Assembly: GCA_021817225.1 (NCBI GenBank)
Contig: JAKAVR010000021.1
Coordinates: 1 to 32,360 of the forward strand
Length of the DNA stretch: 32,360 bases
Direction of reading: 5' to 3'
From: Thermoplasmata archaeon
Lineage (GTDB): Archaea > Thermoplasmatota > Thermoplasmata > Sysuiplasmatales > Sysuiplasmataceae
In this document: positions 644 through 18,293 of the stretch, in pieces
How the letters are laid out: each line of letters begins with the position of its first letter
Position numbering within the stretch: the first letter of the stretch is position 1
Made by a program: the position numbers and the translations under genes
The notes under the pieces: model-generated
Told to the model about the DNA's origin: nothing
What the model saw: only the letters and a program-made list of their open reading frames with translations
Database searches by the model: none

Positions 644-1087
644 ATGTACATAAGCTACTTTGGTATCAGGGTCACGGACCTTGAGCGGTCTATCCGCTTC
701 TACCAGGAAGTCTTTGGGCTCAGAGTTGTCAGGAAAGGGGATTTTTCGGAAAAGGGCGGAGGAAAGTACGCCCTTCTCAGGGACGCAGTCTCTGGACAGA
801 GGATAGAGCTGAACTGGTATGCCGACGGTTCCAGGTATGCTGTGAAGTACGAGCCTGGGGAGGGGCTGGACCATATCGGTGTCAAGGTGGACAGCGTGGC
901 CGAGATGCAGAAGCGGCTTGCAGGGAAGGGGATAGAGATTGTGTCCTTGCCGGAAACTCTATCGACACAGCATCTGAGCAGCACATTCACAATGCACATT
1001 GGCTTTGTGAAGGACCCGGATGGAAACTGGATCGGGCTTTATGACCACGACCGTCCAGTGCAGCCCTATGATCCTGACAGTTACTGA
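644..1087 (+). CDS. VOC/glyoxalase-fold protein
   Basis: This 147-residue protein opens with MYISYFGIRVTDLERSIRFY, the first beta-alpha unit of the vicinal-oxygen-chelate fold, and has the second module at LDHIGVKV and DPDGNWIGLYD. By comparison with glyoxalase I, the Glu of IELNWY and the His of LDHIGV occupy metal-ligand positions. The first ligand position looks like Tyr and the last Glu (WIEL in glyoxalases) is Gly, so lactoylglutathione lyase activity is doubtful. I chose ATG 644 rather than 626 because the fold starts there and a TATA-like box sits 26 bases upstream. Its stop overlaps the convergent end of the ABC operon by seven bases. The family is clear; the substrate is unknown. Confidence 0.75.
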   Translation: MYISYFGIRVTDLERSIRFYQEVFGLRVVRKGDFSEKGGGKYALLRDAVSGQRIELNWYADGSRYAVKYEPGEGLDHIGVKVDSVAEMQKRLAGKGIEIVSLPETLSTQHLSSTFTMHIGFVKDPDGNWIGLYDHDRPVQPYDPDSY

Positions 1088-2067
1088 CCTCTCTTCAGCT
1101 CGTTCTCAAGCGGGTTGAAACATGCGTACCTGCCACTTTCATTCCCTGCCAGTGGCGGGAATTCCGATGCACAACGTTCAACTGCCCTAGTGCAAAGCTG
1201 CATGTATCTGCAGCCTTTTTCGGCCCAGGGATCGTGTTCCCCCGAATCTCCCTTCAGATTTACACCCTTGCTGTTTTCGGCGAACACGCTTGAGAGTGTT
1301 CGTGGCGCGTGGTCCAGCAGCACCTTGCTATATGGATGTCTTGGCGATGATACGAGTGCGGCTGTTTCAGTCTGCTCTATCACCTTTCCTGAATACATTA
1401 CGTAAATGTCCCTGGACGAGTATGCAGCCACCCCCATGTTGTGGGTTACAATTGCGTAGCCCATCTTTCTTGTATCTGCCAGCTTCTTCAGCAGGTTCAG
1501 TATTCCCGCTGCAGCAGAAGCATCCAGCATGCTTGTCGGTTCGTCTGCTATAATAAACTCAGGATCGCTTGCGAGGGCTCTGCCAATGGCAACCCTCTGC
1601 TTCTGGCCGCCGCTGAGCTGATGAGGATATTTCCACAGGACATCCTCCTTCAGCCCGACATATCCAAGCAGCTCCTCCGCCCTTGTTTCCATTTCCATCC
1701 TTGTCATATCGCCTGTGAGGAATTTCAGGGGCATCGTGATGTACTGGAGCATATTGTGCTTTGGGTTCATTGCGCCGTAAGGATCCTGGAATATTATCTG
1801 CACAGACATCCTGAACTCCTTCAGCGTCTTTCTGCCGCTCCTGTGTATGTCCCTGCCTTTGAAGATCACAGATCCGTTCGAAGGTCTCGTGAGTCCTATC
1901 AGGCACCGTACCAGTGTGGTCTTGCCCGCCCCGCTTTCACCTACTACGGCCAGCCTGTCCTCGCGTCCTATCCTGATGCTGACATTATCCAGTGCATTTA
2001 TCCTTCTGTTCCTCGACTCAAATGTGACTGTCGCATTCCTGAGTTCCAGAAGTGCTTCATCTTCCAT
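1081..2067 (-). CDS. dppF: Dipeptide/oligopeptide ABC transporter ATPase, DppF/OppF type
   Basis: This is the second nucleotide-binding subunit of the peptide importer, working on the cytoplasmic face. Walker A is GESGAGKTT (about residues 43-51), followed by the Q-loop (FQDP), the signature LSGGQKQR and Walker B/D-loop (IIADEPTSMLD). A C-terminal oligopeptide-transporter extension ends with several Cys (CRYMQLC, CASEF, ACFNP), a pattern linked to an Fe-S or structural site in this family. It is the last gene of a five-gene operon. An ATG at 2106 is possible, but the ATG at 2067 has a GAGG about 7-8 bases upstream and begins close to the domain (EDEALLELRN), giving an 11-base overlap with the upstream ATPase gene. 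The imported substrate cannot be read from the ATPase. Confidence 0.9.
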   Translation of the reverse strand: MEDEALLELRNATVTFESRNRRINALDNVSIRIGREDRLAVVGESGAGKTTLVRCLIGLTRPSNGSVIFKGRDIHRSGRKTLKEFRMSVQIIFQDPYGAMNPKHNMLQYITMPLKFLTGDMTRMEMETRAEELLGYVGLKEDVLWKYPHQLSGGQKQRVAIGRALASDPEFIIADEPTSMLDASAAAGILNLLKKLADTRKMGYAIVTHNMGVAAYSSRDIYVMYSGKVIEQTETAALVSSPRHPYSKVLLDHAPRTLSSVFAENSKGVNLKGDSGEHDPWAEKGCRYMQLCTRAVERCASEFPPLAGNESGRYACFNPLENELKRGQ

Positions 2068-3013
2068 TTTCTTTCCTCGGGTGGTAACAGAAGGCGACGT
2101 GGCCATTTTTCAGGTCCACCTGTGGTGGCTCGCTGTCGAAACATTCCTGAGTTGCGAATGGGCATCTGTCACTGAACCTGCAGTTCGTTGGCAGGTTTAT
2201 GGGGACGGGTGGATAGCCCTTGATGGATTCCACAGTTGAGTTCATGCTTTCTATCGTGATGTTTGAATCAATCAGTGCGCTTGTGTAAGGGTGGGCAGGA
2301 GATGCCAGGACGTCCCTGGTGCTGCCCATTTCAACAATCTTGCCGAGATACATTATTGCTATAGTGTCGCACATTTTTGCAAGTACGGAAAGGTCGTGTG
2401 AAATGAACAGGACGGTCGAAGAGCCGCCGCTGACAATGTCCTTCAGCAGATCAAGTATCCTCTCCTGAGATACAACATCCAGCGCTGTTGTCGGCTCATC
2501 TGCAATAATTAGCTTTGGTTGTAGCGCTATGGCCATCGCAATTACAATCCTCTGCTTCTGGCCGCCGCTCAGTTGGTGCGGGTACTTGTGTATGCTGTCT
2601 GGCGGCAGGCGGACCCGGCGGATAAGCTCGGCAGACATTTTGAGAGCTTCCAGCCTCGTCTTCTTTGTGTGGTCCATAATAGAGTCTGCTATCTGGCTGC
2701 CCACCATTTTCACGGGATTCAGGCTGTTCATGGCGCCCTGGAATATCATCGACACTTCCTTCCACCTGAATCTCCGTAACTCTTCATCAGAGAGGGAGAG
2801 CAGGTTTCTTCCTGCAAATTCTATGTCTCCCTCGACCACTCCTGGTGGCCTTATCATCCTGAGCAGCGTCAGCCCCGTAGTCGTCTTTCCGCATCCCGAC
2901 TCACCTGCAAGACCGAGCACCTTCCCCTGATCGATGCTCAGTGAAATGCCATCTACCGCGGTCACTTCACCTTTCAGGGAGGGAAATTTGACGCTGAGGT
3001 TGCTTATCTCCAC
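2057..3013 (-). CDS. dppD: Dipeptide/oligopeptide ABC transporter ATPase, DppD/OppD type
   Basis: This is the first ATPase subunit of the importer, 318 residues. Walker A is GESGCGKTT (residues 38-46), the signature is LSGGQKQR (near residue 150) and Walker B runs IIADEPTTALD. The C-terminal oligo_HPY region holds the characteristic cysteine set (CRFSDRCPF, ECFDSEPP, AFCYHP), which binds an iron-sulfur cluster in some OppD proteins. The start is GTG at 3011-3013, ten bases after the permease stop. Both ATPases keep all catalytic motifs, so the importer appears functional. It would pair with the DppF-type subunit as a heterodimer. Confidence 0.92.
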   Translation of the reverse strand: MEISNLSVKFPSLKGEVTAVDGISLSIDQGKVLGLAGESGCGKTTTGLTLLRMIRPPGVVEGDIEFAGRNLLSLSDEELRRFRWKEVSMIFQGAMNSLNPVKMVGSQIADSIMDHTKKTRLEALKMSAELIRRVRLPPDSIHKYPHQLSGGQKQRIVIAMAIALQPKLIIADEPTTALDVVSQERILDLLKDIVSGGSSTVLFISHDLSVLAKMCDTIAIMYLGKIVEMGSTRDVLASPAHPYTSALIDSNITIESMNSTVESIKGYPPVPINLPTNCRFSDRCPFATQECFDSEPPQVDLKNGHVAFCYHPRKENGR

Positions 3014-3023
3014 TAACAGAAAA

Positions 3024-3902
3024 TCATCTCCCCACCGCAGAATACCTGGGATCCGTTATGTCGTCTATCGCCCGTGCTATCAGTGTGATCGCGATTCCAG
3101 TGAGCGCAATGAAAATGCCGGGAGCGAGTATCCAGGCTATTCCTCCATGGAAGACAGCTCCTTCGTTCTGCGCATTGTAGAGAACAGTTCCCCAACTGTA
3201 ATTCTTTGTTGACGCAAGTCCGAGGAATGCAAGCGACGCATCCGCTATGACTCCGTATATCACCGCGAGAATTCCGTTCGCTATAATGAGTGAAATCACG
3301 TTTGGAAAGATCATGCTTCCAAGTATGTACCATTTCGGCGCACCGCTTACGACTGCAGATTCAACAAACTCTCTCTCCCTCAGCGTGAGTGTCTGCGACC
3401 TGATCATTCTTGCCATTGGCGGCCACCCGAATACAATTATGACAATAAGCACCGACTCTAATCCTGGTCCAAGTATCACCGCGACGAAAATCATGAATGC
3501 GATGGATGGGATGACAAGGAGGACATCTACTATGCGCATAAGCGCCTCATCCACATAGGAGCCAAAGTAACCAGATATAATTCCGACTGTGGTTCCAAGG
3601 ATTGTGATGCCTGCAGCCGAAACAAAACCGATTTCAAGAGAAAGAGCGGTGCCGTGTATCATCTGGCTGAATATATCCCTGCCAAGCCCGTCTGTACCGA
3701 ACGGGTGCGAGTAGCTGGGTGGAAGGTAAGGCTCTGCAACGAGCGCTGTGGGTGCATATGGCGAGAGGAACGAGGCAAGGAGGGCGATCACCACAAGCGA
3801 AAGCAGGATCACCAGCCCGGCAATTGCTGCTTTATTGGACAGGAGTTTCTTCAGGAAGGTATCCTCTCCCGAAGCGCTTACCATGAGTCTCTTCACGTTC
3901 AT
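3024..3902 (-). CDS. dppC: Peptide ABC transporter permease, DppC/OppC type
   Basis: A 292-residue membrane permease with an N-terminal helix (IAGLVILLSLVVIALLASF), the OppC-type periplasmic segment (YSHPFGTDGLGRDIFSQMI), and the binding-protein-dependent transport domain with several more helices. The EAA-like loop that contacts the ATPases is near ESAVVSGAPKWYILG. Its ATG overlaps the stop of the DppB gene by four bases (ATGA), a sign of translational coupling. It forms the transmembrane pore with the DppB subunit. Length and domain order are normal for the family. Confidence 0.92.
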   Translation of the reverse strand: MNVKRLMVSASGEDTFLKKLLSNKAAIAGLVILLSLVVIALLASFLSPYAPTALVAEPYLPPSYSHPFGTDGLGRDIFSQMIHGTALSLEIGFVSAAGITILGTTVGIISGYFGSYVDEALMRIVDVLLVIPSIAFMIFVAVILGPGLESVLIVIIVFGWPPMARMIRSQTLTLREREFVESAVVSGAPKWYILGSMIFPNVISLIIANGILAVIYGVIADASLAFLGLASTKNYSWGTVLYNAQNEGAVFHGGIAWILAPGIFIALTGIAITLIARAIDDITDPRYSAVGR

Positions 3903-4897
3903 GTGTATCTAATCCTCGGGTCCACAAGAGAATAGATCAAGTCCGCGAAATAATTGGCAAGAATCACGGTGATTGCCAGTATGTAGAAGATGCCCTCGAT
4001 CACTGGGTAGTCATGACCGAGAATGGCGTTGAAGAGCAATGTGCCAATCCCGGGATAGCCAAAAACTATCTCGACAAGCAATGCGCCACCGACAACATAG
4101 CCGAAGTTCACCGCTATGATGCTTATCACAGGGAGTATTCCGTTTCTGAGCGCGTAGGAAATCAGGATTCTCTGCTTTTTCAGTCCCTTTGACTCTGCAA
4201 CATTCATGAAGTCTTCCCTGACGAGATCCGCCACGTTGTTCCTCATTATGATGGCGTAAACAGGTGCTGTCGAAACGACTAGGGTAATCATGGGGAGCAT
4301 GCTGTGATAGGCGACATCCAGAGTCCACTCCGGCGAGAAGGCTGGACTTGTGTCAAGTATCGAGTATGCCCCGGCAACCGGAAATATCCTGAACACAACC
4401 GCAAAAAGAATCTGGAAGAGTATCGCCACCCAGAAATAGGGCAGAGCTCTGAGCGTCATAGAGCTGTAAGTGATAGTCCTGTCGAGCATGCTGCCTCTCC
4501 TGTAGCCTGCATACAGTCCGACAAATGTACCCACAAGGGCAGAGACGGCTACCGAAGAGCCGACCAGGAAGAGTGTCCATGGAAGTGCCGTCGCTATGAG
4601 CTGGTATGTGGATGTAGGATAGTACTCGTACGAGTAGCCAAGATTGGGAGGGAAAGTCAGCAGGACATTTTTCAGATACAGCGCGAATTGCACATAGACA
4701 GGCTGATTCAGCCCAAACTGGATTATCAGCTGCTTCGTCACCGAAGGTGGAAACTGCTGCGATGCCGCCAGTATATCAACAGGATTGACGGCAACAAGGC
4801 GCGGGATGATAAATATCATCACCAGCGCTATGAAAAAGGTTAGGACGGCGTAGATTGAACGCCGTATCAGGTATTTGCCGGATATTCTCAAACACAA
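3899..4897 (-). CDS. dppB: Peptide ABC transporter permease, DppB/OppB type
   Basis: A 332-residue permease with the OppB N-terminal helix (YLIRRSIYAVLTFFIALVMIF), an extracellular segment carrying FGLNQPVYVQF, and a C-terminal transport domain ending near LADLIYSLVDPRIRYT, typical of DppB. The EAA-like loop is around FMNVAESKGLKKQRIL. The start is TTG immediately after the solute-binding protein stop; a second TTG two codons later is equally placed relative to an AAAGG upstream, so the true start is uncertain by two residues. It partners with DppC. Confidence 0.9.
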   Translation of the reverse strand: MCLRISGKYLIRRSIYAVLTFFIALVMIFIIPRLVAVNPVDILAASQQFPPSVTKQLIIQFGLNQPVYVQFALYLKNVLLTFPPNLGYSYEYYPTSTYQLIATALPWTLFLVGSSVAVSALVGTFVGLYAGYRRGSMLDRTITYSSMTLRALPYFWVAILFQILFAVVFRIFPVAGAYSILDTSPAFSPEWTLDVAYHSMLPMITLVVSTAPVYAIIMRNNVADLVREDFMNVAESKGLKKQRILISYALRNGILPVISIIAVNFGYVVGGALLVEIVFGYPGIGTLLFNAILGHDYPVIEGIFYILAITVILANYFADLIYSLVDPRIRYT

Positions 4898-6664
4898 CTA
4901 CCTTTGTCTTCTTCTCATTAGTGCCACGGCTGCCACGGCAACGACTGCAGCGACCACTATTCCAACACCGATATATACATAAGTGTAGTCGGGCGCTGCT
5001 GATGTCGCCCCTCCTGAAAGGCTAGTCAGCAAAGTGGCCTGAGGGAACTGGTAGCCCTGAGTTGCCGGACTCCACCCCTGGATGCTTGCATTTGAGTACG
5101 CCCAAATGGAATTGCCATAGTAGAGTGTTATAAGCGGAACCTGAGTCGCAAGTATGTTCTGTGCGTCGGCATAGAGCTGGTACTGGGCGCTGAAGGTGCC
5201 GACCTGTCTTGCCTGTTGCAGGTCGTTCCAGAGAGTACTGTTCGTCCACCTTGTCCATCCGTGGTAGTTGAGTTCTTGCTGACCGATTGGTGTAGTTGTG
5301 TTCAGTGCAAAGACACCAAGCACAAAGTCAGGTATCGGCGGTCTGCTTGTAGTCAACAGTACCATGTCGAAGGTGCCATATTCCAGCGCGGAGACGAGGC
5401 TCCCAATGGTTACAACCGACTCGGATGCATCGATGCCAGCAGACTGGAGGTTCTGGACCATGACCGAAACCACATTGCTGTTGGCCCCTCCGGTGTCGAG
5501 GATCTTTGGCGTCCAAGCAGTGCCATTCGGGAATGTCAGGAAACCGTTGGTTCCGTTCTTGAAGCCAAGGCCGAGGAGCATCTGTCTTGCATGAGCCGGA
5601 TCGAATGTGTAGTTGGGCAGGTTGTTGGGTATCCACTGGGTAAGTGAATTCGGCAACTGTCCCTGGCTGCCTGGTGTCCCATATCCGTTCAATCCGAGCT
5701 GGACAATCTGCGTCCTGTTAATGGCATAGGCAATTGCCTGCCTTACCTGGGTAATGTTGTACGGATAAAGCATGTCATCAAACATGAGCAGCCCGGCGGG
5801 GTCAAAGTAGGTGCCGAATATGGCGTTCCCGGGCGAGAAGGCTAGATGCATGTGGCTGACGCCGGTCAATGCTGATATCTGGTTTGTTGCAGGCTGTGCA
5901 AGGGCAAGACTGCCAGTCTGGAGCAGCGAGGCTATGTTTGAGGTCGATGAGAGTATCTGCACGGCTATTCCACCGATCTTGGGGGCGGGGCCGTAGTAAT
6001 ACGGGTTGGGTTTGTAATTTATGACCGAACTGCCGGGCACCCAGTTGGTCACAACAAACGGACCGTCACCGACCGGGTTGCCTGCGTTCGAAAAGTTTGT
6101 CATGTTGCTGACATGAGACCAAATGTGCGCAGGAACAATCACCTTTCCAAGACCGGCATATTCCAAGAAGGGCGAGAACGAGTGGTAGAGTGTGAACTGC
6201 ACTTCAGTGTTGTTCACGCTCGCGCTTACATTCTTAATGAGTGGCCCAACAATGAATCCGTTGAAAGAGTCAAGCAGAGCGTTGTGAATGAAGGCGTTGA
6301 AGGTGAAAACCACGTCATTTGCTGTTAGCGGCTGGCCATCAGACCACTTCAGGTTCTGTCTCAGCGTGAATGTGAACACTGATGCATTTGAATTGACGGT
6401 CCAGCTCTGGGCGAGCTGAGGGACAACAGTGCCGTTAGGATCCTGTGACAGAAGCGAAAGGTACATTACACCGAGCAGTTGGCTGTTTGCGGTCGCCGAC
6501 TGGCCCCCTGGATAGAATGGATTGAGAGTTTCTATGGGACCCGGATTCACTATCCCGACGGTGAGTGTTTGTGCAGTGGCGGCTCTTGTATTTCCGACTG
6601 CAACCGTGAGACCGCTGACAATAAACAGTGCCACTAACGCGGCGGCTAACAACTTGGCCTTCAT
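4898..6664 (-). CDS. dppA: Peptide-binding protein, SBP family 5 (DppA/OppA type), membrane anchored
   Basis: This 588-residue protein is the extracellular substrate receptor of the importer and the first gene of its operon. It starts with a signal peptide (KLLAAALVALFIVSGLTVAV) without a lipobox Cys. The family-5 body follows, with LTANDVVFTFNAF and GDGPFVVTNW as recognisable segments. It ends with a transmembrane helix (YVYIGVGIVVAAVVAVAAVA) and an MRRRQR tail, an arrangement common in archaeal binding proteins that stay anchored to the membrane. Many N-x-S/T sequons suggest glycosylation. The location beside murQ, anmK, nagA and amidase-like genes suggests muropeptides or murein-derived peptides as ligands, but family 5 also binds ordinary peptides, nickel and oligosaccharides. 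Substrate is inference. Confidence 0.92.
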   Translation of the reverse strand: MKAKLLAAALVALFIVSGLTVAVGNTRAATAQTLTVGIVNPGPIETLNPFYPGGQSATANSQLLGVMYLSLLSQDPNGTVVPQLAQSWTVNSNASVFTFTLRQNLKWSDGQPLTANDVVFTFNAFIHNALLDSFNGFIVGPLIKNVSASVNNTEVQFTLYHSFSPFLEYAGLGKVIVPAHIWSHVSNMTNFSNAGNPVGDGPFVVTNWVPGSSVINYKPNPYYYGPAPKIGGIAVQILSSTSNIASLLQTGSLALAQPATNQISALTGVSHMHLAFSPGNAIFGTYFDPAGLLMFDDMLYPYNITQVRQAIAYAINRTQIVQLGLNGYGTPGSQGQLPNSLTQWIPNNLPNYTFDPAHARQMLLGLGFKNGTNGFLTFPNGTAWTPKILDTGGANSNVVSVMVQNLQSAGIDASESVVTIGSLVSALEYGTFDMVLLTTSRPPIPDFVLGVFALNTTTPIGQQELNYHGWTRWTNSTLWNDLQQARQVGTFSAQYQLYADAQNILATQVPLITLYYGNSIWAYSNASIQGWSPATQGYQFPQATLLTSLSGGATSAAPDYTYVYIGVGIVVAAVVAVAAVALMRRRQR

Positions 6665-6685
6665 GCCTGCGATAAATTCCCTAGG

Positions 6686-6878: not shown

Positions 6879-7937
6879 TCAGCCATGCATAGAGATCCGC
6901 TTTGCCTCTTCCAGGGCTTGCGTGTGGAACGCCACTCTTGTGCGCTGCATTTCCTTGAGGTCCCCGTTCACCTGGTCTCTGTTTGTCAGAAGCACTGAAA
7001 CGGACTTCCATTTTGTGTCGATGAATATCGACGTTCCTGTGTGGCCTGTATGGCCAAAGAGCTTCCGGACTCCAGGGACAGCAGAGGTTATCGCTCCAGG
7101 TGAGATCATTAGGCCGAGCCCGTATCTCTGACTGTCAAGAACCGTGGAAACTGGCGTGGTCATTCTTCTCAGCGAACTTGCGGTGAGCAGCCTGCCTTTT
7201 TCCTCGAGCAAGTCTCCCAGCAGTATGTGGCCGATCTTGATGAGATCCGATGAAGTCGAGAATAGACCAGCATGACCGCTTACACCTTCCATCTTCGCTG
7301 TCACCTCGTTGTGTGGCTCGCCTCTGAGCTCTCTTCTCCTTATGCTCGAATAGCCCGTGGGTGCGCACTTGCTGGCAGGCAGCGGAGAGTAGACAGGCAA
7401 TGTAGTCCTGGTCCGTGAGAGTATCATGTTTCTCATAAGCCAGTCCTGGTTCCTGCCAGAAATCTCCTCCAGTATTTCGCCCAGAAGCATATACCCGAGA
7501 TCACTGTAGACTCCTCTTCCGGCTCCCGACCTTTCACTCCTGTTCAAAACACCGAACACATTATCCCTTGAACTGCATCTCTTCATCGAATTTCTAAGAG
7601 GTGCAAGGCCCGAAATGTGTGAAAGAAGTTCATGCACGGTCACTCCGGCAATTTGCTCGCCGGCCTTTCTTCCAAGCACCTCGACTGCTTTGGTTGTAAG
7701 CTTGAGTTCTCCTCTTTCAATGAACTGCATGGCGAGGATGGCAGTGAATATCTTGGTAATAGATGCAAGATCATACAGCGTCTCCGTTCCGGCCCTGCCC
7801 CCGCCATCAGGACCGAGGGATCCCGCCGCCCCGCTGGCCAACGTCTTTCCGTCAACTGAGAGGGCATACGACGCGCACCCGTAAATCCTCCTTACCCCGG
7901 AAAGCACTGTCTGCCCAAGTCTGGTGATATCTTTCAC
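6879..7937 (-). CDS. Serine beta-lactamase-fold hydrolase, AmiE/YbbE-like paralogue 1
   Basis: A 352-residue member of the PF00144 (class C beta-lactamase/esterase/DD-peptidase) fold. The SxxK motif is SITK (59-62, nucleophile S59), the second motif is YSD (144-146), and the third is in GHTGHTG (295-301). It also has GVSGHAGLFST (219-229), shared with the amidase/esterase group to which Bacillus subtilis AmiE (YbbE) belongs; AmiE removes the peptide from MurNAc during muropeptide rescue. There is no signal peptide, so it likely acts in the cytoplasm. The start is GTG, 21 bases after the PHP-hydrolase stop, so the two are probably co-transcribed. It diverges from paralogue 2: the HDENA motif reads HNEVT here. 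It could instead be an esterase; amidase activity is inferred from context. Confidence 0.8.
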   Translation of the reverse strand: MKDITRLGQTVLSGVRRIYGCASYALSVDGKTLASGAAGSLGPDGGGRAGTETLYDLASITKIFTAILAMQFIERGELKLTTKAVEVLGRKAGEQIAGVTVHELLSHISGLAPLRNSMKRCSSRDNVFGVLNRSERSGAGRGVYSDLGYMLLGEILEEISGRNQDWLMRNMILSRTRTTLPVYSPLPASKCAPTGYSSIRRRELRGEPHNEVTAKMEGVSGHAGLFSTSSDLIKIGHILLGDLLEEKGRLLTASSLRRMTTPVSTVLDSQRYGLGLMISPGAITSAVPGVRKLFGHTGHTGTSIFIDTKWKSVSVLLTNRDQVNGDLKEMQRTRVAFHTQALEEAKRISMHG

Positions 7938-7958
7938 TTTCCTCAGTCGCCTGGAGTT

Positions 7959-9827
7959 TCAGAAGAGCCTTTCCTCGGGCCACTTCAGGGGGGATGTCTC
8001 CTCGTCTGCGGGCCTCACAATGACGTATCTCGTTCTTTCGGGAACTGGCACCGATTTCTTCGAATGACCTTTGATTGAGGACAGAGTCCTGGCACCAAGC
8101 CTGAGCTTGTCGGAGAAGCGAAGCAGCTCAACGCGGAAGCATCCTGACATGTACTCTCTCGGCTCCAGCTGCCTCCCATCCACACAGACTGCCGGTGCGG
8201 GTTTGCCATCGATCCTCGGGACCGCTTCATAAAGAAGTGAAGACATCTTCTTTGCCTTTATGAGCAGGCGGACAGATTTTCTCTCTGATACGGCAGCGAA
8301 GTGCCACGATGCCCTGCTTCCTTTCATTGCATACAGGTCGCCCCCGTATTTCACAGTGACCAGGTTTTCCGCTTTGATGCGCATCATTGACGCTCCGGAT
8401 ACCTCCACATCTCCTGAGAAAGCAGCTTCCTCTTCTCCCGCAACTACATCGATGCCGACTACAAACTCGTCAGCCCCCAAGTACTCAGTGGTGAAGTTGT
8501 ATCCGGTTCTTCTCCTGCTACCCGGGTTACGTTGCGCCATGATGGTTTTCGGATTAGAAGAGTAAAATGAGGCAATATGCGGGAAAGCAATGCCCTCTCC
8601 GCTGTTTATGACTTCAAGCCCATTCCTCTTGAGTGTGAAGGAAGGCGATCTGCCGTTTCTTTCGAACCACACGGGTGAGCTCCATGCCCGGTGCCCATCT
8701 TTCTGCAGGACTCTGAGATAGTACCAAGTGACTCCCGGGCCCGGTCTGTCCGTGATCTCGGCTGCGAATGAGGAGGATTTCGGAGCCCACCTTGCAGCAA
8801 CCCCGTTGTTCTTGACTAGCTCAACTCTGTTCAGTGTTCCCTCCCCCTTCACTTTGATGCTTATGTGTGCAATGTCGCTGTTGCCGGCCAGCAGTTCGGA
8901 ACCCATTACTCTGCCATTTACGGTGAAATCGACAATTATTCTGGCACCGGTAGTTGCATAGCACCTCTTCTCTGCTATGGCGCCGAATATTGCATCCCTG
9001 CTGAGTTCGGGGGCGATTACAGCAGTCAGGCCTCGTGTATTGGCTGTGTCTGTTGATATGTAGTCCGCTGCGCTCCTTCCAATAGGGTTGCTTCCGACAT
9101 TCTGACCCTCCACGAAGTTCTTCTTCCTCCTGTTACCGAAGGTTCTTTCGCCCGGATGACCGTCATGGCTGTCCCCTCCACCTATGAAACCAAGCCTGTA
9201 GCCTCTGTTGAGCGCATCTCTTACATATCTGTCCGGCAGCACATCGGAAATACCATGATCGATATCTGTATCGGGAGATTCAAAGTTGCCCCACAGCGAT
9301 GTTATCTCGGTGACCGGCTGGAACACAGTGCTGTGGTAGTTCCAGTCATATGGCATCTGGGAGACGCCTACGTGATGCGGCACTGTGATAATGTCTCCTC
9401 CCTTCCCTTCCAGGTATTTCCAGAGGGTCGTCGGTACCATCCAGTCTGCTGGCTGGGACGGTGACCAGAGAGCCATTTTGGGAAGTTCACCGTTGCCTGA
9501 GTCACCGTGCCTGCATTTGATGAGCTTCCCGGAATCGCCTGAGAAATATATGTTCTGGTGTCCGTACTTGGCAGAAGTCCATTCATAGCCCAGTATGGTG
9601 GCAAACTTCCCGTTGACATTTGACTCGTTTGTGGCATCTACTATCGCCTTCCACTCCTCGCTGGAAAGATTCAGATCGTGATCGGTCAGTGTGGCGAAGT
9701 CCAGTTTCCCATACTTCATTGCATTGGCATAGTATTCAATCGGGTCTATGGAAGGAAAATCGGTATCTTTCCAATAGCACTCAGAATACCCGGAATGGCC
9801 GTGCGGGTCACCCCAGTAGATATTCAT
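7959..9827 (-). CDS. PHP-type metallohydrolase (DUF3604 / CehA-McbA-like)
   Basis: A 622-residue protein whose first part has the PHP metal-binding series: HGH (9-11) in WGDPHGHSGYSE, LTDHD (47-51), the Glu of GYEWTS (82), PHH (150-152), and GGGDSHDGHPG (216-226). The remaining ~300 residues look like beta-rich domains (for example LNRVELVKNNG and WYYLRVLQKDG), as in the DUF3604/CehA-McbA group of metal-dependent hydrolases. There is no signal peptide. ATG 9827 is preferred because the WGD segment follows at once; ATG 9833 is also possible. It is the first gene of a two-gene unit with amidase-like paralogue 1 and faces amidase-like paralogue 2 across a shared promoter region. The substrate is unknown; a role on muropeptides is suggested only by the neighbours. 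Confidence 0.8.
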   Translation of the reverse strand: MNIYWGDPHGHSGYSECYWKDTDFPSIDPIEYYANAMKYGKLDFATLTDHDLNLSSEEWKAIVDATNESNVNGKFATILGYEWTSAKYGHQNIYFSGDSGKLIKCRHGDSGNGELPKMALWSPSQPADWMVPTTLWKYLEGKGGDIITVPHHVGVSQMPYDWNYHSTVFQPVTEITSLWGNFESPDTDIDHGISDVLPDRYVRDALNRGYRLGFIGGGDSHDGHPGERTFGNRRKKNFVEGQNVGSNPIGRSAADYISTDTANTRGLTAVIAPELSRDAIFGAIAEKRCYATTGARIIVDFTVNGRVMGSELLAGNSDIAHISIKVKGEGTLNRVELVKNNGVAARWAPKSSSFAAEITDRPGPGVTWYYLRVLQKDGHRAWSSPVWFERNGRSPSFTLKRNGLEVINSGEGIAFPHIASFYSSNPKTIMAQRNPGSRRRTGYNFTTEYLGADEFVVGIDVVAGEEEAAFSGDVEVSGASMMRIKAENLVTVKYGGDLYAMKGSRASWHFAAVSERKSVRLLIKAKKMSSLLYEAVPRIDGKPAPAVCVDGRQLEPREYMSGCFRVELLRFSDKLRLGARTLSSIKGHSKKSVPVPERTRYVIVRPADEETSPLKWPEERLF

Positions 9828-9860
9828 AGCCATGCGCCAAAGATGTAACATTCCTGTACA

Positions 9861-9870
9861 TAATTGTATC
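9861..9870 (-). promoter_or_regulatory. TATA-like box for the PHP hydrolase gene
   Basis: GATACAATTA on the reverse strand lies about 32-38 bases before the candidate ATGs at 9833 and 9827. The 170 bases between the divergent PHP and amidase genes are the only sensible place for their control region. Confidence 0.35.
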
Positions 9871-9986
9871 ATCAGGGGCTGGAAAGAGGAATATTTTTCC
9901 CGAATCTGCGGCGTGCCCTTCGGGAGTTGTATAGTCTCCCCGGCAAATGATTTAGCCTTGCGCAGTATCTATGCACCACAAAGGAC

Positions 9987-9991
9987 GGAGG
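9987..9991 (+). promoter_or_regulatory. Shine-Dalgarno GGAGG deciding the amidase-like start
   Basis: A perfect GGAGG lies six bases before ATG 9998. This favours 9998 over the upstream in-frame ATG at 9971, and shows the locus mixes leadered and apparently leaderless genes. Confidence 0.7.
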
Positions 9992-9997
9992 ATTCAG

Positions 9998-11077
9998 ATG
10001 GCCAAGAGTCTGAGCTCGATGCTCGATGTTCTTATGAAACAGGGGATTGAGGACGGCATTTTCCCCGGTGGTGTCGCGCTTGTCACAAAGAAGGGGAAAA
10101 TCGAATATGAAGGTGCATTCGGCAATTCAATGATTACGCCGGAAAAGAGAACGCTTTCCTCCGACTCCATCTTTGATATGGCGTCTCTTACAAAGGTCGT
10201 TGCAACCACCACAGCTGCTCTCCAGCTTATCGAAGATGGCAAACTGACACTTGCAGACAAGGTTAGCGATCATTTTGATGAATACTCCGGAAATTGGACA
10301 AACAAGGAGGCCACGATCGAAGACCTGATGGCACACACTTCGGGATTTGCTGCAGTGTATCCCTTCCAGAACACTGCCAAGAACCAGGCGGAAGTTGTCA
10401 ACGTCATTTCATCCCTGCATGCGGCGCTTCAACGAATGTATGAACCCGGCACTGCAGAGGTGTACAGCGATATTGACTACATACTCCTTGGCAGGATAAT
10501 CGAGAAGATAACAGGCACAACCCTGGACGCATACTGCAGGGACCACATCTTCAAACCGCTCGGAATGAATGACACCTCTTTCAATCCTGACAGGAAACTT
10601 GAGAAACGGTTTGTGGCCACGGAGGTCTATCCTGACAGGTTATGCCTTGGAACAGTGCATGATGAGAATGCATATTTCATGGGCGGAGTGTCAGGTCATG
10701 CCGGACTGTTTTCCACCGCACTGGATATGCATCTATTCGCGAGTTCAATCCTCAGGCATGGCGCATATGAGGGAGGCAGCATACTTTCCACCTCTTCTGT
10801 TGAACAGATGATCAGGCAGCGCAGACCTGCAATCAATGGCACATTCGGCCTTGGCTGGCAGCTCAATACAGGAAGAAACATCGGACCCTTTGGAGATCTT
10901 TTTCCACCCGGCAGCTTCGGCCACACGGGCTTCACTGGAACAATGATATGGATGGACATTCCCTCGGGGGTCTGCTCAATACTGCTCACAAACAGGGTTC
11001 ACCCTTCACGCAACAGTCCCGGCATTCTGAGGTTCAGGAGGCTCTTCAACAACATAGTTGCGAGTTTCCTACTGTAA
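9998..11077 (+). CDS. Serine beta-lactamase-fold hydrolase, AmiE/YbbE-like paralogue 2 (probable MurNAc-L-Ala amidase)
   Basis: A 359-residue PF00144-fold protein. Catalytic motifs are SLTK (63-66), YSD (156-158) and HTG within GHTGFTGT (308-315). It carries HDENA (221-225) followed by GGVSGHAGLFSTA (229-241), the signature I associate with the B. subtilis AmiE/YbbE group found in muropeptide-rescue clusters. No signal peptide is present, so it would act on imported muropeptides, releasing the stem peptide from the MurNAc lactyl group before phosphorylation by AnmK. It is divergent from the PHP/paralogue-1 pair and convergent with nagA. Family membership is seen in the sequence; amidase function follows from family and context, and an esterase remains possible. 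Confidence 0.82.
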   Translation: MAKSLSSMLDVLMKQGIEDGIFPGGVALVTKKGKIEYEGAFGNSMITPEKRTLSSDSIFDMASLTKVVATTTAALQLIEDGKLTLADKVSDHFDEYSGNWTNKEATIEDLMAHTSGFAAVYPFQNTAKNQAEVVNVISSLHAALQRMYEPGTAEVYSDIDYILLGRIIEKITGTTLDAYCRDHIFKPLGMNDTSFNPDRKLEKRFVATEVYPDRLCLGTVHDENAYFMGGVSGHAGLFSTALDMHLFASSILRHGAYEGGSILSTSSVEQMIRQRRPAINGTFGLGWQLNTGRNIGPFGDLFPPGSFGHTGFTGTMIWMDIPSGVCSILLTNRVHPSRNSPGILRFRRLFNNIVASFLL

Positions 11078-11128
11078 ACAACACGTGTGCCGTCCAGCAA
11101 TCGTCCGGGCATGTTCCCCGTGCGCCGC

Positions 11129-12241
11129 TTACCCTGTGCCGTACACTTCCTTTCCCAGCACGTACGTCTCTTTCACTTCAAGTGATGGTGACAAGAGGAC
11201 AAGATCGGCCCGTTTCCCCTCCTCAATTGAGCCCCTGTCGTTAAGGCCTATTGCACTTGCAGGGTTTGCAGTGGCCATGGGGACTGCATGCTCAAGCCCG
11301 ATCCCTGCAAAACGCATTATGTTCCCCAGAGCCCTGTCCATAGTCAGGGTGCTTCCTGCAAGAGTGCCATCCCTCAAGCTGGCCACGCCATCTTTCACAT
11401 TGAAGTCAAACGCTTCAGTGTGGAATTCGCCATCGCCGCTGTTTTGCGCTTTTATCCCGTCAGTCACCAGGATAATCTTGTCTGCAGGTTTCATCCTTGT
11501 TAGTATTCGTGCCGCAGCGGGAGAGACGTGGATGCCATCTGCGATGAGTTCGCAGTACACGCTGTCTTCGGTCAAAGCCGCTCCAACGACCCCCGGCTTT
11601 CTGTGATGCAGCCCCGTCATTGCGTTATAGGTGTGATTCACAATTGTCACCCCTCTTTCGAACGACCTCAAAGCAGTCTCTAAATTCGCCGCGGTGTGAC
11701 CTATTGATGTCCTGATGGAATGCTCTCTGCAGTAGTCTATGAATTCCATCGCTCCGGGGAGTTCGGGGGCCAGTGTGACAAGCCCGATGCCGCCGTCTGT
11801 AATCCGGCTGTATTCCTTCAGCTCTTCTATGCTTGGCGGGCGCATGAATTCCGGGTTCTGTGCACCCTTCATCTCCCTGCTGAGGAAAGGTCCCTCCAGA
11901 TGAATCGAGCATGGGTCGGCTCCCTCTGCGCTTTCAGTCATCCAGTTCCTCAGCGCGACCAATATTGTCGTCATTGGTGCCGAAGCAAGAGTTGGCATGA
12001 AAGTTGTAACACCGTTCATGACGAGGCACTTCGAAATTCGTGAAATCGCATTCTTGTTGTCCAGGAAGTCAAAATTGCAGCTACCGTGAAGATGTATGTC
12101 TATGAAACCGGGCAGAAGGAGCCTCTTTCCCTCCTTCTTTTCCGAAGTGATTTCGACTCCTGTTATCTTGCCTCCATGGGCTTCCACAGAACCGTACATG
12201 AGAGATCCGTTGCTGAAGACGTTCACATCATCAATTATCAA
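11129..12241 (-). CDS. nagA: N-acetylglucosamine-6-phosphate deacetylase
   Basis: NagA converts GlcNAc-6-P to glucosamine-6-P and acetate in the cytoplasm. The 370 residues match the family length (E. coli 382). Visible features are the metal site HLH (50-52) in GFIDIHLHG, the metal-ligand Glu in HLEGPFLS (E116), His of IGHTAAN (H182), His of VNHTYNAM (H203), and catalytic Asp in LVTDGI (D261). The start is TTG at 12241 with a GGGG about ten bases upstream. It lies 50 bases downstream of the NlpC/P60 gene on the same strand, so both probably share a transcript. In this locus its substrate would come from MurQ, and its product would feed NagB. Confidence 0.95.
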   Translation of the reverse strand: MIIDDVNVFSNGSLMYGSVEAHGGKITGVEITSEKKEGKRLLLPGFIDIHLHGSCNFDFLDNKNAISRISKCLVMNGVTTFMPTLASAPMTTILVALRNWMTESAEGADPCSIHLEGPFLSREMKGAQNPEFMRPPSIEELKEYSRITDGGIGLVTLAPELPGAMEFIDYCREHSIRTSIGHTAANLETALRSFERGVTIVNHTYNAMTGLHHRKPGVVGAALTEDSVYCELIADGIHVSPAAARILTRMKPADKIILVTDGIKAQNSGDGEFHTEAFDFNVKDGVASLRDGTLAGSTLTMDRALGNIMRFAGIGLEHAVPMATANPASAIGLNDRGSIEEGKRADLVLLSPSLEVKETYVLGKEVYGTG

Positions 12242-12291
12242 TCAACCAGTCCCCGTGAATTCCGGTGCATGTCTTCCTCAGCAGTTGAAAG

Positions 12292-13006
12292 TCAATCCTC
12301 ATTCTCAGTCTCCTTTCCCAAGCCTTCAATTCGCCTGATTGAGGTAATGGTCTCCCTCAGGCGCCTGGCATATGCGCTTTTCTGTAGCATATCTGTTATG
12401 CTCACTCGCTGACCATGGAGATTTGCGTGTATCATCAGACCTCCGCCCTTGCATAAGCCGACATGACCGGGAAAGAAGATGAGATCTGCTGGTCCGCACT
12501 CCTCTATGCCTGGGACATGCGTTCCAACCTTCTCCTGGTTTCCTGAATTCCTCGGCAGTATCCTCCCGCTGAAGGAGAAGATTCTCTGAACAAGGCCAGA
12601 GCTGTCAATTCCAAACTCAATCACACCCCCCCAAAGGTACGGAACACCAAGGTATTGTTCAGCAAGCTTCAGAGGGTTGAGTCTGAATCCCATCGGTCTG
12701 TAATAGCCATCCGGGATTTCCACTTCAAATATATCGTCATTTGTCAACAGAGAACCCGCCGGAAGTCTCAGATCGCCAATCCTAAAGGTTATGGCTATCT
12801 TGAATCCTGCCCCCCCGGCTACATTCCCCAAGGCCATTTCTCAACATGTAGCCGGTATAGCCGTCCGGGAGAATGTCCTTGGCAAAGTCGTCCTCTTCCC
12901 GGATAACTTCGACCACCTGCCCATAAACTGCATGGTCGACCCTTTCTGATCGGAACTGTGGTTCAGACATGAGATCGGCCATACCAACAGAAACCCTTAC
13001 AGCCAT
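12292..13006 (-). pseudogene. NlpC/P60 endopeptidase with SH3-like domains, frameshifted and lacking the catalytic Cys
   Basis: Two overlapping reverse frames together make one YkfC-like protein: an N-terminal SH3-like domain (MAVRVSVGMADL to DGYTGYMLRNGLG), then in the next frame a second SH3-like part (AGFKIAITFRIGDLRLPAGS) and the NlpC/P60 domain (YLGVPYLWGG). Removing one base from the G7 run (C7 on the forward strand, 12810-12816) restores an ORF of about 237 residues. The family's catalytic Cys in D-C-S-G is Ser here: GIDSSG, codon AGC at 12601-12603. The His of GHVGL and the second His of MIHA are kept, twelve residues apart as in YkfC. YkfC-type enzymes cut gamma-D-Glu-diamino-acid bonds of murein peptides. 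Either the gene is decaying, or the frameshift is a sequencing error and only the Ser change is real. ATG 13006 best fits the TATA spacing; 13012 is possible. Confidence 0.8.
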
Positions 13007-13030
13007 TTTCATCCGTCGATGAGCTGTCCG

Positions 13031-13040
13031 ATAATTACCA
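13031..13040 (-). promoter_or_regulatory. TATA-like box for the NlpC/P60-nagA unit
   Basis: TGGTAATTAT on the reverse strand ends about 25 bases before ATG 13006 and has no Shine-Dalgarno after it. It lies in the 73-base gap shared with the divergent murQ gene. Confidence 0.4.
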
Positions 13041-13085
13041 TTTGCGGTTCAGTGTCTGGACAACAATCAAAATGTATCACCTCAA

Positions 13086-13967
13086 ATGATCTGTTCAAAG
13101 ATGGCCGGGTCAGCGTCGGGAACAAAGGGCATTTCGACCGAAATGCAGAATGCAAGGACAAGGGATTTGAGCAGCATGTCCACGGAAGAAATCATGAGAG
13201 CCATCAACGAGGAGGATTTCACAGTCCCTTCAGCTGTCAGGGAGGCGCTGCCTGATATCTGCCGGGCAGCAGAGGCAGTTTCTGCAGCCGTGAACTCGGG
13301 CAACAGGATATTTCTTCTGGGTGCGGGAACAAGTGGAAGAATCGCTGCTCTTGATGCGGCTGAGCTGCCACCCACATTCGGTTTCCCGCGGAGTCAGTTC
13401 AAGGCGATTATGGCCGGAGGCACAAAGGCATACCTCAGGGCGGTTGAAGGGGCCGAAGACAGCACGAGCGATGCACCTGAGAGGCTGAAGCGGGGAAGAC
13501 TCAGTTCGGGAGATGCTGTGATTGGTATCACTGCATCGGGCAGAACACCATTCGTCATTGCCGGATTGAAATACGCTCAAACAAAGGGAAGCAGGACAAT
13601 ATGCATCACATCGAACAAGGGTTCTGAAATCACCAGGGTCGCGGACATAGCAATTGTGGTCGAGACAGGAGCTGAGGTCATAACAGGCAGCACAAGGATG
13701 AAGGCTGGAACTGCCCAGAAGCTTGTTCTCAACATGATAAGCACATTTGCAGGGATCAGGGCAGGAAGGGTCGTCGGCAACAACATGGTCGGCATGAAGC
13801 CTTCAAACAAGAAACTCAGGTTCAGGGCAGTCGACATTGTTGTCAATGTGGCAAAATGTGGAAGAGCGGAGGCGACGAGGAGGCTTGAGGATTGCGACTA
13901 CGATATCGCGGCAGCAATAGCCGCCATCGGCCTGGGAAGGAACAAAGATCGTTCGAATCGCAAGTGA
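13086..13967 (+). CDS. murQ: N-acetylmuramic acid 6-phosphate etherase
   Basis: MurQ cleaves the D-lactyl ether of MurNAc-6-P, giving GlcNAc-6-P and D-lactate. The 293-residue protein has the SIS-domain signature GAGTSGRIAALDAAELPPTF (79-98), EGAEDS (121-126), ITASGRTPFVIAGL and the family hallmark TGSTRMKAGTAQKL (200-213). Glu93 and Glu124 stand 31 residues apart, as do the two catalytic glutamates I recall for E. coli MurQ (83 and 114). The N-terminal stretch STEMQNARTRDLSSMSTEEI matches MurQ starts, so the gene begins at ATG 13086 or at ATG 13101. The C-terminus is some 20 residues shorter than in E. coli. MurQ has no use outside murein catabolism, which makes it the clearest marker of the pathway. 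Confidence 0.96.
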   Translation: MICSKMAGSASGTKGISTEMQNARTRDLSSMSTEEIMRAINEEDFTVPSAVREALPDICRAAEAVSAAVNSGNRIFLLGAGTSGRIAALDAAELPPTFGFPRSQFKAIMAGGTKAYLRAVEGAEDSTSDAPERLKRGRLSSGDAVIGITASGRTPFVIAGLKYAQTKGSRTICITSNKGSEITRVADIAIVVETGAEVITGSTRMKAGTAQKLVLNMISTFAGIRAGRVVGNNMVGMKPSNKKLRFRAVDIVVNVAKCGRAEATRRLEDCDYDIAAAIAAIGLGRNKDRSNRK

Positions 13968-14007
13968 TCGTAGACACATCCAAACAAACTGCGGTTCGGC
14001 AGTCAGG

Positions 14008-14020
14008 TTATTTTAAAATA
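14008..14020 (+). promoter_or_regulatory. TATA box of anmK
   Basis: TTATTTTAAAATA is an excellent archaeal TATA element, centred about 35 bases before the TTG start at 14050. It gives anmK its own promoter within the 82-base gap after murQ. Confidence 0.6.
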
Positions 14021-14049
14021 CGCAAAATCGCTGGACCTTTGGTGACCTG

Positions 14050-15162
14050 TTGAGAATATTTTCCTGCGTGTCGGGTACCTCATGCGACGGCATTTCATGG
14101 GCTTTGGTGGACGTATCAGAAAAAAAGGGGAAGATCGTCTTCGATCTTTCAAGGAAGGGAAACAGTGACTATGCCGTTGAATTGAAACGCTCCCTGCTTG
14201 AAACAGCCAACTCCGGAAAGACCGGTCTCCAGGAGCTCTGCGACATGCACTGGTCAATTGGAAAGCACCTTGTCCGTATAGCCAGGAGGCTTCCTTCAGG
14301 CATTGATGCAGCGGTGTTTTCGGGGCACACGATTTACCATACCGAGCAGGTTGGGAAAACAGGAATGGGGACCTTTCAGATTGGGGCAGTTGAACCACTT
14401 TCCTTGTTCCTTGAGGTGCCTGTGCTTCGGGATATGCGCTCCACCGATGTAGCAGCAGGCGGAATGGGGGCCCCCCTGGTTCCCAGGGCAGATGAATTGA
14501 TGTTTGGCCGGGGCTCAGCCGTGCTCAACATGGGAGGCATAGCAAACCTGACCCTATTGGGGTCCAGGACCACGGGCTTTGACACTGGACCCGGAAACAT
14601 GTTGATCGACGAGGCCTCACGCCTCTTGTTTGGAAAGGAGTTCGACAGGAACGGTTCTATAGCCAGGTCGGGGAAGCAGGACGCCAGAATCCTCTCTTCC
14701 CTGCTCAAAGATCCTTTTGTGAATTCAAGACCGCCCAAGTCCTGCGGGAGGGAGAGATACGGGACTGGTTTTCTTCACAGGATTGTGAAGCGCGCCTCAA
14801 GTCTCGGTATAAGGAATGAGGACATTATGGCCACACTTACTGAATTCACAGTGAGGAGTATTTTGAGAAACATGGGGCGATTTGCCCCGGGCTACAGGAA
14901 GCTGATTTGTGCGGGTGGAGGTGCCTACAACACCTATCTCATGGAGCGAATGGCAGAACTCTTTGATGGCAAAGTGTACATTTCGGACGAGTTCGGGGTT
15001 CCGCGCGACTCAAGGGAGTCGATCGCTTTTGCGCTCCTCTGTTACCTCTCGCTTCAGCTCAAAGCATCCAACTCGGACGCGACCGGGGCGAAGAAGAAAT
15101 TGCCGCTAGGCAGCGTGACAGTCCACGGTTTCGTTGGAGAGCCCGCGAGCATCATGCGGTGA
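14050..15162 (+). CDS. anmK: Anhydro-N-acetylmuramic acid kinase
   Basis: AnmK opens the 1,6-anhydro ring of anhydro-MurNAc with water while phosphorylating it with ATP, giving MurNAc-6-P for MurQ. The 370 residues match E. coli AnmK (369). The N-terminal phosphate loop is SGTSCDGI (8-15). GHTIYH (92-97), DMRSTDVAAGGMGAPLVP (128-145) and GFDTGPGNMLID (176-187) are family landmarks, with D178 equivalent to the catalytic Asp of E. coli. The nucleotide-binding CAGGGAYNTYLMERM follows near the C-terminus. The start is TTG, with GGTGA five bases upstream. Its presence implies that the cell receives anhydro-muropeptides, the products of lytic transglycosylases. I see no broken motif. Confidence 0.96.
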   Translation: MRIFSCVSGTSCDGISWALVDVSEKKGKIVFDLSRKGNSDYAVELKRSLLETANSGKTGLQELCDMHWSIGKHLVRIARRLPSGIDAAVFSGHTIYHTEQVGKTGMGTFQIGAVEPLSLFLEVPVLRDMRSTDVAAGGMGAPLVPRADELMFGRGSAVLNMGGIANLTLLGSRTTGFDTGPGNMLIDEASRLLFGKEFDRNGSIARSGKQDARILSSLLKDPFVNSRPPKSCGRERYGTGFLHRIVKRASSLGIRNEDIMATLTEFTVRSILRNMGRFAPGYRKLICAGGGAYNTYLMERMAELFDGKVYISDEFGVPRDSRESIAFALLCYLSLQLKASNSDATGAKKKLPLGSVTVHGFVGEPASIMR

Positions 15163-15180
15163 ACACAGCGGCGTAGGCGA

Positions 15181-15195
15181 ATTATTTTCTATTAT
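15181..15195 (+). promoter_or_regulatory. TATA box of nagB
   Basis: ATTATTTTCTATTAT is centred about 28 bases before the ATG at 15216, with no ribosome binding site between, as for a leaderless archaeal gene. Confidence 0.55.
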
Positions 15196-15215
15196 CCTCA
15201 TCATCGGTCCCAACG

Positions 15216-15971
15216 ATGAGAAGCAAAAGAGTCGGCGGCCTGACAGTTGAAGTCTACAGGGACATGCGTGAACTCATCAATGCCGCTGCTGAGTTGCTGT
15301 TCAGCCAGCTCCGGTCCAAGAAAGAATCGGTTATAGGGCTGGCGACGGGCTCAACATTTCTGCCTTTCTATGCGTACGTTTCGGCCAACTACCGGAAAGA
15401 AGGCATCAGCTTCAGAGATGCCGTGACTTTCAACCTTGACGAATATTACCCAATCGCGAATGAGGACAGCAATTCATACCATTCATACATGACAGCCAAC
15501 TTATTCTCGAAAATAGATATTCAGGCAGCAAATGTCCACATCCCAGATGGATCGGCCGTGAATCCAGACCTCGAAGTCATGGAATATGAGGGAGCGATAC
15601 TCAGGGCGGGCGGGATCGACCTCCAGTTTCTTGGAATCGGGCGCAACGGGCACATCGGCTTCAACGAGCCCGGGACCTCGTTTGAAAGCAGAACCCATGT
15701 CACCAGTCTGACCGATTCCACTCTTGCTGCAAACAGGCCCTTCTTCCCCGATTCGGGCTCACCGATGCCGGTCAAGGCAATCACTATGGGCATTGCGACC
15801 ATTCTTTCTGCTCACAGATTGGTGCTCCTCGCCTTCGGGAAAACGAAATCCGATGCATTATACGCCGCTTTGAATGGTCCTGTTACAAAGGAGGTCCCTG
15901 CCTCGGTCCTTCGGAAGCATGGAAAGGCGACTTTCATGGTGGACGAGGACGCTCTCGGGGAAATGTTCTGA
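15216..15971 (+). CDS. nagB: Glucosamine-6-phosphate deaminase
   Basis: NagB isomerises and deaminates glucosamine-6-P to fructose-6-P and ammonia, the step that brings amino-sugar carbon into central metabolism. At 251 residues it matches the shorter Bacillus-type enzymes rather than the 266-residue E. coli form with its allosteric tail. Key segments are the phosphate-binding LATGSTFLPFY (42-52), the catalytic Asp in FNLDEYYP (D75), and GIGRNGHIGFNEPG (140-153) with H146 and E151. It has its own TATA-type promoter and closes the muropeptide locus; the next gene belongs to sugar-nucleotide synthesis. Confidence 0.95.
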   Translation: MRSKRVGGLTVEVYRDMRELINAAAELLFSQLRSKKESVIGLATGSTFLPFYAYVSANYRKEGISFRDAVTFNLDEYYPIANEDSNSYHSYMTANLFSKIDIQAANVHIPDGSAVNPDLEVMEYEGAILRAGGIDLQFLGIGRNGHIGFNEPGTSFESRTHVTSLTDSTLAANRPFFPDSGSPMPVKAITMGIATILSAHRLVLLAFGKTKSDALYAALNGPVTKEVPASVLRKHGKATFMVDEDALGEMF

Positions 15972-18223: not shown

Positions 18224-18243
18224 CCAGGTTTGTCCGTTCCGCC

Positions 18244-18269: not shown

Positions 18270-18293
18270 TATACAATTCGCGCGGCCGCCAAG

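Follow-up and report, generated by a model that had tools for sequence, protein, structure and literature searches.

What use would an archaeon that probably makes no murein wall of its own have for enzymes that take apart the sugars of bacterial peptidoglycan? The question is posed by a 32,360-base stretch of DNA (hereafter the window), which is the entire contig C35 of a Thermoplasmata genome (G000) and which holds, all inside 15 kb, genes for the N-acetylmuramic acid (MurNAc)-6-phosphate etherase MurQ, the 1,6-anhydro-MurNAc kinase AnmK, the N-acetylglucosamine (GlcNAc)-6-phosphate deacetylase NagA, the glucosamine-6-phosphate deaminase NagB, two serine hydrolases and an Opp/Dpp-type importer (Table 1). 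An earlier note, made from the sequence of the window, had seen here a near-complete locus for eating the debris of bacterial cell walls; every gene that it named is present, close to the position it gave. We conclude that the locus very probably encodes a pathway with which a thermoplasmatal archaeon would import fragments of bacterial peptidoglycan and degrade them inside the cell.

The four sugar enzymes carry this reading. MurQ, AnmK and NagB follow one another on the plus strand (13086-15971), and NagA lies on the minus strand. MurQ passes two specific profiles (NF003915, 345 bits against a cut-off of 168; NF009222, 312 against 255), is borderline for a third (TIGR00274, 301.2 against 302) and matches the solved MurQ 4lzj at an E value of 2.9e-67; E93 and E124, which we take to be the catalytic glutamate pair, align to that structure and are invariant across 15 archaeal sequences. 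The catalytic Asp of AnmK is kept, D178 in the motif GFD(x)GPGN aligning with Asp182 of the Pseudomonas aeruginosa enzyme (3qbw), as are the metal and catalytic motifs of NagA in its alignment to Thermotoga maritima NagA (1o12), and NagB has the same active-site motif, LGIGRNGHIGFNEP, as Bacillus subtilis NagB (2bkv). Profiles and alignments to solved enzymes thus bear out the earlier note in its claim that all four retain intact catalytic motifs; for most genes of the locus, the profile score greatly exceeds what chance would give. Because these are well-characterised families with conserved catalytic residues, four sugar steps can be proposed: AnmK would turn 1,6-anhydro-MurNAc into MurNAc-6-phosphate, MurQ would split the latter into GlcNAc-6-phosphate and D-lactate, NagA would remove acetate from GlcNAc-6-phosphate, and NagB would yield ammonia and fructose-6-phosphate, feeding glycolysis.

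Table 1. Features of the window, and of related loci (L numbers), with the evidence for each assignment
Feature	Coordinates	Strand	Evidence or remark
MurQ, MurNAc-6-phosphate etherase	13086..13967	+	conserved part from ~13134
AnmK, 1,6-anhydro-MurNAc kinase	14050..15162	+	PF03702 251 bits, cut-off 24
NagA, GlcNAc-6-phosphate deacetylase	11129..12241	-	TIGR00221 303 bits, cut-off 225.7
NagB, glucosamine-6-phosphate deaminase	15216..15971	+	TIGR00502 239.4 bits, cut-off 236.9
BLA1, AmiE-like serine hydrolase, predicted cytoplasmic N-acetylmuramoyl-L-alanine amidase	9971..11077	+	PF00144 219 bits
NlpC/P60 peptidase gene, damaged	12292..13000	-	frameshift; catalytic Cys replaced by Ser
OppA/DppA-type family-5 solute-binding protein	4898..6664	-	PF00496 213 bits
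Opp/Dpp permease, DppB-like	3899..4897	-	PF00528; 70% identity in G332
Opp/Dpp permease, DppC-like	3024..3902	-	PF00528 and OppC_N
Opp/Dpp-type ABC (ATP-binding cassette) ATPase, OppD/DppD-like	2057..3013	-	PF00005 and oligo_HPY; 63% identity in G332
Opp/Dpp-type ABC ATPase, DppF-like	1081..2106	-	PF00005 and oligo_HPY; NCBIfam dipeptide ATPase 257 bits; G332 orthologue
BLA2, second beta-lactamase-family serine hydrolase	6879..7937	-	PF00144 143 bits
CehA/McbA-family metallohydrolase (PHP-like)	7959..9872	-	NF038032 89.5 bits, cut-off 80; G332 orthologue
S66 LD-carboxypeptidase, gene start only	31990..32360	+	PF02016 116 bits; rest on contig C79
GlcD/D-lactate-dehydrogenase-like flavoprotein and CCG protein loci	L048:5101-7741, L051:12704-15338, L046:9747-12295		
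Diaminopimelate (DAP) decarboxylase genes in peptidoglycan loci of three Thermoplasmata genomes	L043:1002-2279, L049:12044-13303, L154:6709-8004		

The cluster recurs in related archaea. Profile searches of 390 genomes sampled across the phylum Thermoplasmatota found a real MurQ in 14 (224-354 bits) and a real AnmK in 5 (215-265 bits), all five among the 14; by simple counting that ignores kinship, the chance that five random draws all fall inside the fourteen is about 3e-8. Not counted were 245 other genomes in which the MurQ model matched an SIS domain weakly (at most 46 bits), and three AnmK matches that scored 20-24 bits across some 55 residues. NamZ accompanies MurQ in 12 of the 14 genomes and the GH3, BadF-kinase and MR_MLE families in 13 each, and further peptidoglycan enzymes neighbour MurQ in the relatives' loci. 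The earlier note had looked to related archaea for the locus and for murQ next to anmK; the two genes adjoin each other in the window, in G332 (same genus) and in the closed genome G230, and the cluster is kept in three families of the class (f1, f5 and f14) and in two closed genomes (G230 and G093). On a 182-kb contig of G332, NagB, AnmK, MurQ, BLA1 and NagA form a co-directional series, and the same contig carries the group of solute-binding protein, Dpp, BLA2 and PHP genes together with two genes from the window's far end; AnmK, MurQ, NagA, NagB and BLA1 of the window are 52-65% identical to their G332 counterparts. Within about 20 kb, G230 (2,226,687 bp) encodes Dpp, NagZ, NamZ, NagA, a BadF kinase, an amidase, a sugar isomerase, AnmK, MurQ, an S13 peptidase, NlpC/P60 and DAP decarboxylase. 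A stretch of about 26 kb in G093 (1,938,699 bp; 1.597-1.623 Mb) holds two BadF kinases, an amidase, an isomerase, NagA and MurQ, as well as an L-Ala-D/L-Glu-epimerase-like protein, NagZ, two NamZ, NlpC/P60, DAP decarboxylase (TIGR01048, 348.5 bits against a cut-off of 297.9) and LD-carboxypeptidase. In G104, the AnmK relative and MurQ are on separate contigs.

Recycling of the cell's own wall is an unlikely role for these genes. None of the 14 MurQ genomes reached the MurA cut-off, which 10 bacterial controls exceeded; murein synthesis is therefore unlikely, as the earlier note had supposed, and so is ordinary own-wall recycling. G093 is taken to be the cultured strain Cuniculiplasma divulgatum S5, its local GC (guanine plus cytosine) content being near the published 37.3% (PMC5155288); that strain is termed S-layer-deficient and cell-wall-deficient, after the species description, and the paper on its biology makes no mention of muramic acid or peptidoglycan (PMC5155288).

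In a tree of 60 MurQ sequences, all ten from the class Thermoplasmata formed one clade (support 90/60; recovered in 91% of bootstrap trees), and none of the bacterial sequences included stands out as a close donor. The pattern fits a single ancient gain by the class and later loss from many of its members, but the stem is short, and genes may also have passed between these archaea at later times. Four other archaeal MurQs were placed elsewhere: the second copy of G332 and those of G240, G019 and G028, the last three (L054, L055 and L056) belonging to other archaeal classes and representing either separate acquisitions or contaminating contigs. A scan of genome contigs with the single MurQ protein returned no relative, and one with a MurQ alignment returned 80 loci, all bacterial to judge by their record titles. 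The divergent second MurQ of G332 (L040:12490-13395 and L040:13435-14526, for the pair) lies beside the 6-phospho-N-acetylmuramidase MupG, an enzyme that normally acts on a phosphorylated disaccharide, the product of a phosphotransferase system (PTS).

Several points weigh against such a muropeptide route. The NlpC/P60 gene of the window is broken, and NagZ, NamZ and BadF-type amino-sugar kinase went undetected in this 95% complete genome, whose gene set would admit only the monosaccharide or anhydro-MurNAc-peptide. AnmK stays below the NCBIfam equivalog cut-off (NF007148; best score 322.8 against 387), and its family includes levoglucosan kinase. The branch leading to the archaeal MurQ clade is short (SH-aLRT, a likelihood-ratio support value, 60), and most Thermoplasmatota genomes lack MurQ. 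The papers found contain no assay of such an enzyme from an archaeon.

The state of the hydrolases bears on whether the locus is decaying. Both AmiE/YbbE-like serine hydrolases of the earlier note were found. BLA1 carries the motifs SLTK (SxxK) and HTG, is 65% identical to its counterpart in the G332 operon, and belongs to a family present in 11 MurQ genomes whose bacterial relatives sit beside murQ and namZ; it reaches no specific model (200.8 bits against a PBP4B cut-off of 385), and we infer an AmiE-type amidase from the murQ-namZ context in archaea and bacteria. The predicted NlpC/P60 protein, in contrast, corresponds to a gene that is present but broken: its SH3-like N-terminal part (13000-12824) and its peptidase part (12837-12292) are in different frames, the frameshift lies close to a homopolymer seven bases long, and the catalytic motif reads DSSG, against DCSG in six of six relatives. 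Either gene decay or an assembly error combined with a real change would account for this damage. The description of the locus as near-complete suits the sugar branch; the peptide branch of G000 is weaker, with a damaged NlpC/P60 and neither NagZ nor NamZ detected. A vestigial locus, the remnant of an ancestral muropeptide pathway that is being lost with parts still working, would explain the disrupted peptidase and the missing NagZ, NamZ and BadF kinase, which nearly all relatives possess; we nevertheless consider it unlikely, since five genes (AnmK, MurQ, NagA, NagB and BLA1) are undamaged, keep their active-site residues and show the identities to G332 given above, and G000 is a draft in 99 contigs. 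BLA2 and the neighbouring CehA/McbA-family metallohydrolase (6879-9872) form a conserved pair next to the Dpp genes in this genus, being so placed in G332 as well. The earlier note had overlooked this metallohydrolase and the LD-carboxypeptidase gene at the contig end, as well as the damage to NlpC/P60.

The kinase raises a different doubt. It could phosphorylate some other 1,6-anhydro sugar, such as levoglucosan, while NagA and NagB serve the cell's own GlcNAc glycans and the proximity of MurQ is incidental. Among solved structures, levoglucosan kinases come next after AnmK in similarity to the window kinase (145 bits, against 161 for AnmK structures), NagA and NagB serve amino-sugar metabolism in general, and sugar-nucleotide genes lie immediately downstream (16105-19920). 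Against NF007148, the AnmK of G230 scores 386.8, so that the cut-off of 387 just barely leaves out archaeal members. Genomic context favours AnmK: the kinase adjoins MurQ in the window, in G332 and in closed G230, every genome bearing the kinase also has MurQ, for which we know of no role other than on MurNAc-6-phosphate, and NamZ, NlpC/P60 and LD-carboxypeptidase occur in the relatives' loci. A levoglucosan-type function for the kinase is accordingly improbable.

A degradative route inside the cell would depend on import. The Dpp-type importer announced by the earlier note is present in full, with a binding protein, two permeases and two ATPases (1081-6664), and the binding protein has an N-terminal signal-like segment and a C-terminal membrane anchor (hydrophobicity 2.60 and 2.94). 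Anchored in this way, it would, with the transporter, take up small muropeptides or anhydro-MurNAc shed by bacteria, which we infer to be the substrates, and BLA1, judged by its gene neighbourhood, would strip the peptide in the cytoplasm. The amidases, NagZ, NamZ, NlpC/P60, S13 and S66 proteins of Thermoplasmata have no signal-like N-terminus (hydrophobicity at most 1.34), so that fragments are probably imported first and then degraded in the cytoplasm; G240, outside the class, is an exception, its NamZ and Amidase_3 having signal-like segments. The same feature bears on the proposal that the enzymes serve attack on bacteria or defence against them, as hydrolase weapons or by destroying beta-lactams, rather than nutrition. 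Archaea do make peptidoglycan hydrolases that kill bacteria, plentifully so in Thermoplasmatota (PMC12352652), and two proteins of the locus belong to the beta-lactamase superfamily; hydrolases that lack a signal-like N-terminus and a kinase-etherase-deacetylase-deaminase series that is sensible only as catabolism make such a role very improbable.

That the window is archaeal at all follows from the genome around it. G000 (1.97 Mb in 99 contigs, completeness 95%, contamination 1.6%) is of archaeal lineage: it contains one full-length 16S rRNA gene, which matches the Rfam archaeal model at 1495.8 bits over positions 1-1478 and is 79.6% identical to that of G093. The window has a GC content of 0.52 in each half, against 0.498-0.536 in seven other G000 stretches, and its tetranucleotide correlations with those stretches (0.50-0.71) resemble those among them (0.46-0.72). 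An exact 127-base overlap joins the 3' end of C35 to contig C79 of G000, so that the two are neighbours and the S66 LD-carboxypeptidase gene crosses the junction; C79 (its end is L156) also encodes two VapC-like proteins and a tyrosine recombinase. Although every pathway family is typically bacterial and G000 is a metagenome assembly, a bacterial contaminant in an archaeal bin is scarcely credible, because the archaeal 16S rRNA and matching composition speak against it, as do the orthologues of both window ends on one G332 contig, the cluster in closed archaeal genomes, the grouping of the window MurQ with archaeal MurQs and the overlap with C79. The lineage proposed by the earlier note and its guard against a chimeric bin, composition, have therefore both held up; its TATA-type promoters were not established by a crude check near start codons. 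Similar A+T-rich motifs (ATATCTTAA), possibly archaeal promoters, stand upstream of the binding-protein gene (6664, minus strand) and the UDP-glucose dehydrogenase gene (16105, plus strand).

If the locus is an intracellular peptidoglycan-fragment route, its reach would differ among members. With no NamZ, NagZ or BadF kinase detected in G000, entry there would be by anhydro-MurNAc, free or with peptide, via AnmK, and other members would start also from MurNAc or GlcNAc. In the fuller version of the relatives, NamZ and NagZ would trim sugars and BadF-type amino-sugar kinases would provide a second entrance, while NlpC/P60, S66 and S13 peptidases and an L-Ala-D/L-Glu epimerase would process the peptide, and DAP decarboxylase would lead to lysine. 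DapB was undetectable in G230 and G046, whose DAP decarboxylase adjoins NlpC/P60, which suggests that these two organisms obtain lysine from the DAP of wall fragments; G093, where DapB is present, is less telling and speaks against regarding DAP decarboxylase as an orphan throughout. The loci of G314, G330 and G387 encode a GlcD/D-lactate-dehydrogenase-like flavoprotein together with a CCG iron-sulphur protein, a pair that may oxidise the D-lactate released by MurQ. Five loci (L050, L042, L047, L049 and L053) share a tandem-SIS protein (GlmS C-terminal-like, NagB-II/GlmD-like) that may replace NagB there. Taken further, wall-less archaea could live partly on bacterial walls, importing whole muropeptides and breaking them down in the cytoplasm, with the sugars supplying carbon and nitrogen, D-lactate energy and meso-DAP lysine; we hold this broader proposal only tentatively. 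The use of the locus for eating wall debris, as first suggested, is supported by the archaeal genome, the recurrence and the lack of MurA, and its purpose would presumably be nutritional.

The chemistry is known; what is new is its occurrence in archaea that lack MurA and whose hydrolases seem to act inside the cell. Single genes of the set may already bear these names in genome annotations. The earlier note knew of no archaeal route of this kind, and the open-access papers that we searched likewise do not describe the breakdown of MurNAc by any archaeon. Peptidoglycan scavenging by archaea was raised as a possibility and left open in 2025 (PMC12352652). With a conserved pathway and closed genomes, one of them taken as that of a cultured strain, archaeal feeding on bacterial walls is now directly testable; if true, it would mean that archaea and bacteria of acidic habitats are joined by a further trophic link, and the "scavenger" habit ascribed to these organisms would be explained in part.

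Among known systems, the AmpG-NagZ-AmpD-AnmK-MurQ-NagA-NagB route of E. coli and Pseudomonas shares the AnmK, MurQ, NagA and NagB chemistry and cytoplasmic breakdown after import, but those bacteria recycle their own wall, whereas the archaea have no MurA above cut-off, another amidase family and an Opp/Dpp-type importer. The murQ-murR-murP-amiE-nagZ-namZ operon of Bacillus (L084, B. paralicheniformis) likewise clusters MurQ, an AmiE-like amidase, NagZ and NamZ; its AmiE, NagZ and NamZ have signal-like N-termini (hydrophobicity 1.90-1.95), unlike the Thermoplasmata counterparts, and its sugar enters through the MurP PTS, whereas Opp/Dpp or other ABC importers accompany the Thermoplasmata loci (MurP was not searched genome-wide). 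The bacterium Fidelibacter multiformis is reported to gain carbon and energy from exogenous muropeptides of other bacteria and, unlike the archaea without MurA, also to build its own wall from them (PMC11652737). The archaeal hydrolases Woldo and Danwoldo kill bacteria, and Opp-MppA uptake genes are enriched in such genomes (PMC12352652); like the enzymes described here they act on a polymer that their owners do not make, but theirs is secreted lysis, and what the thermoplasmatal locus would add is the catabolism of the sugars inside the cell.

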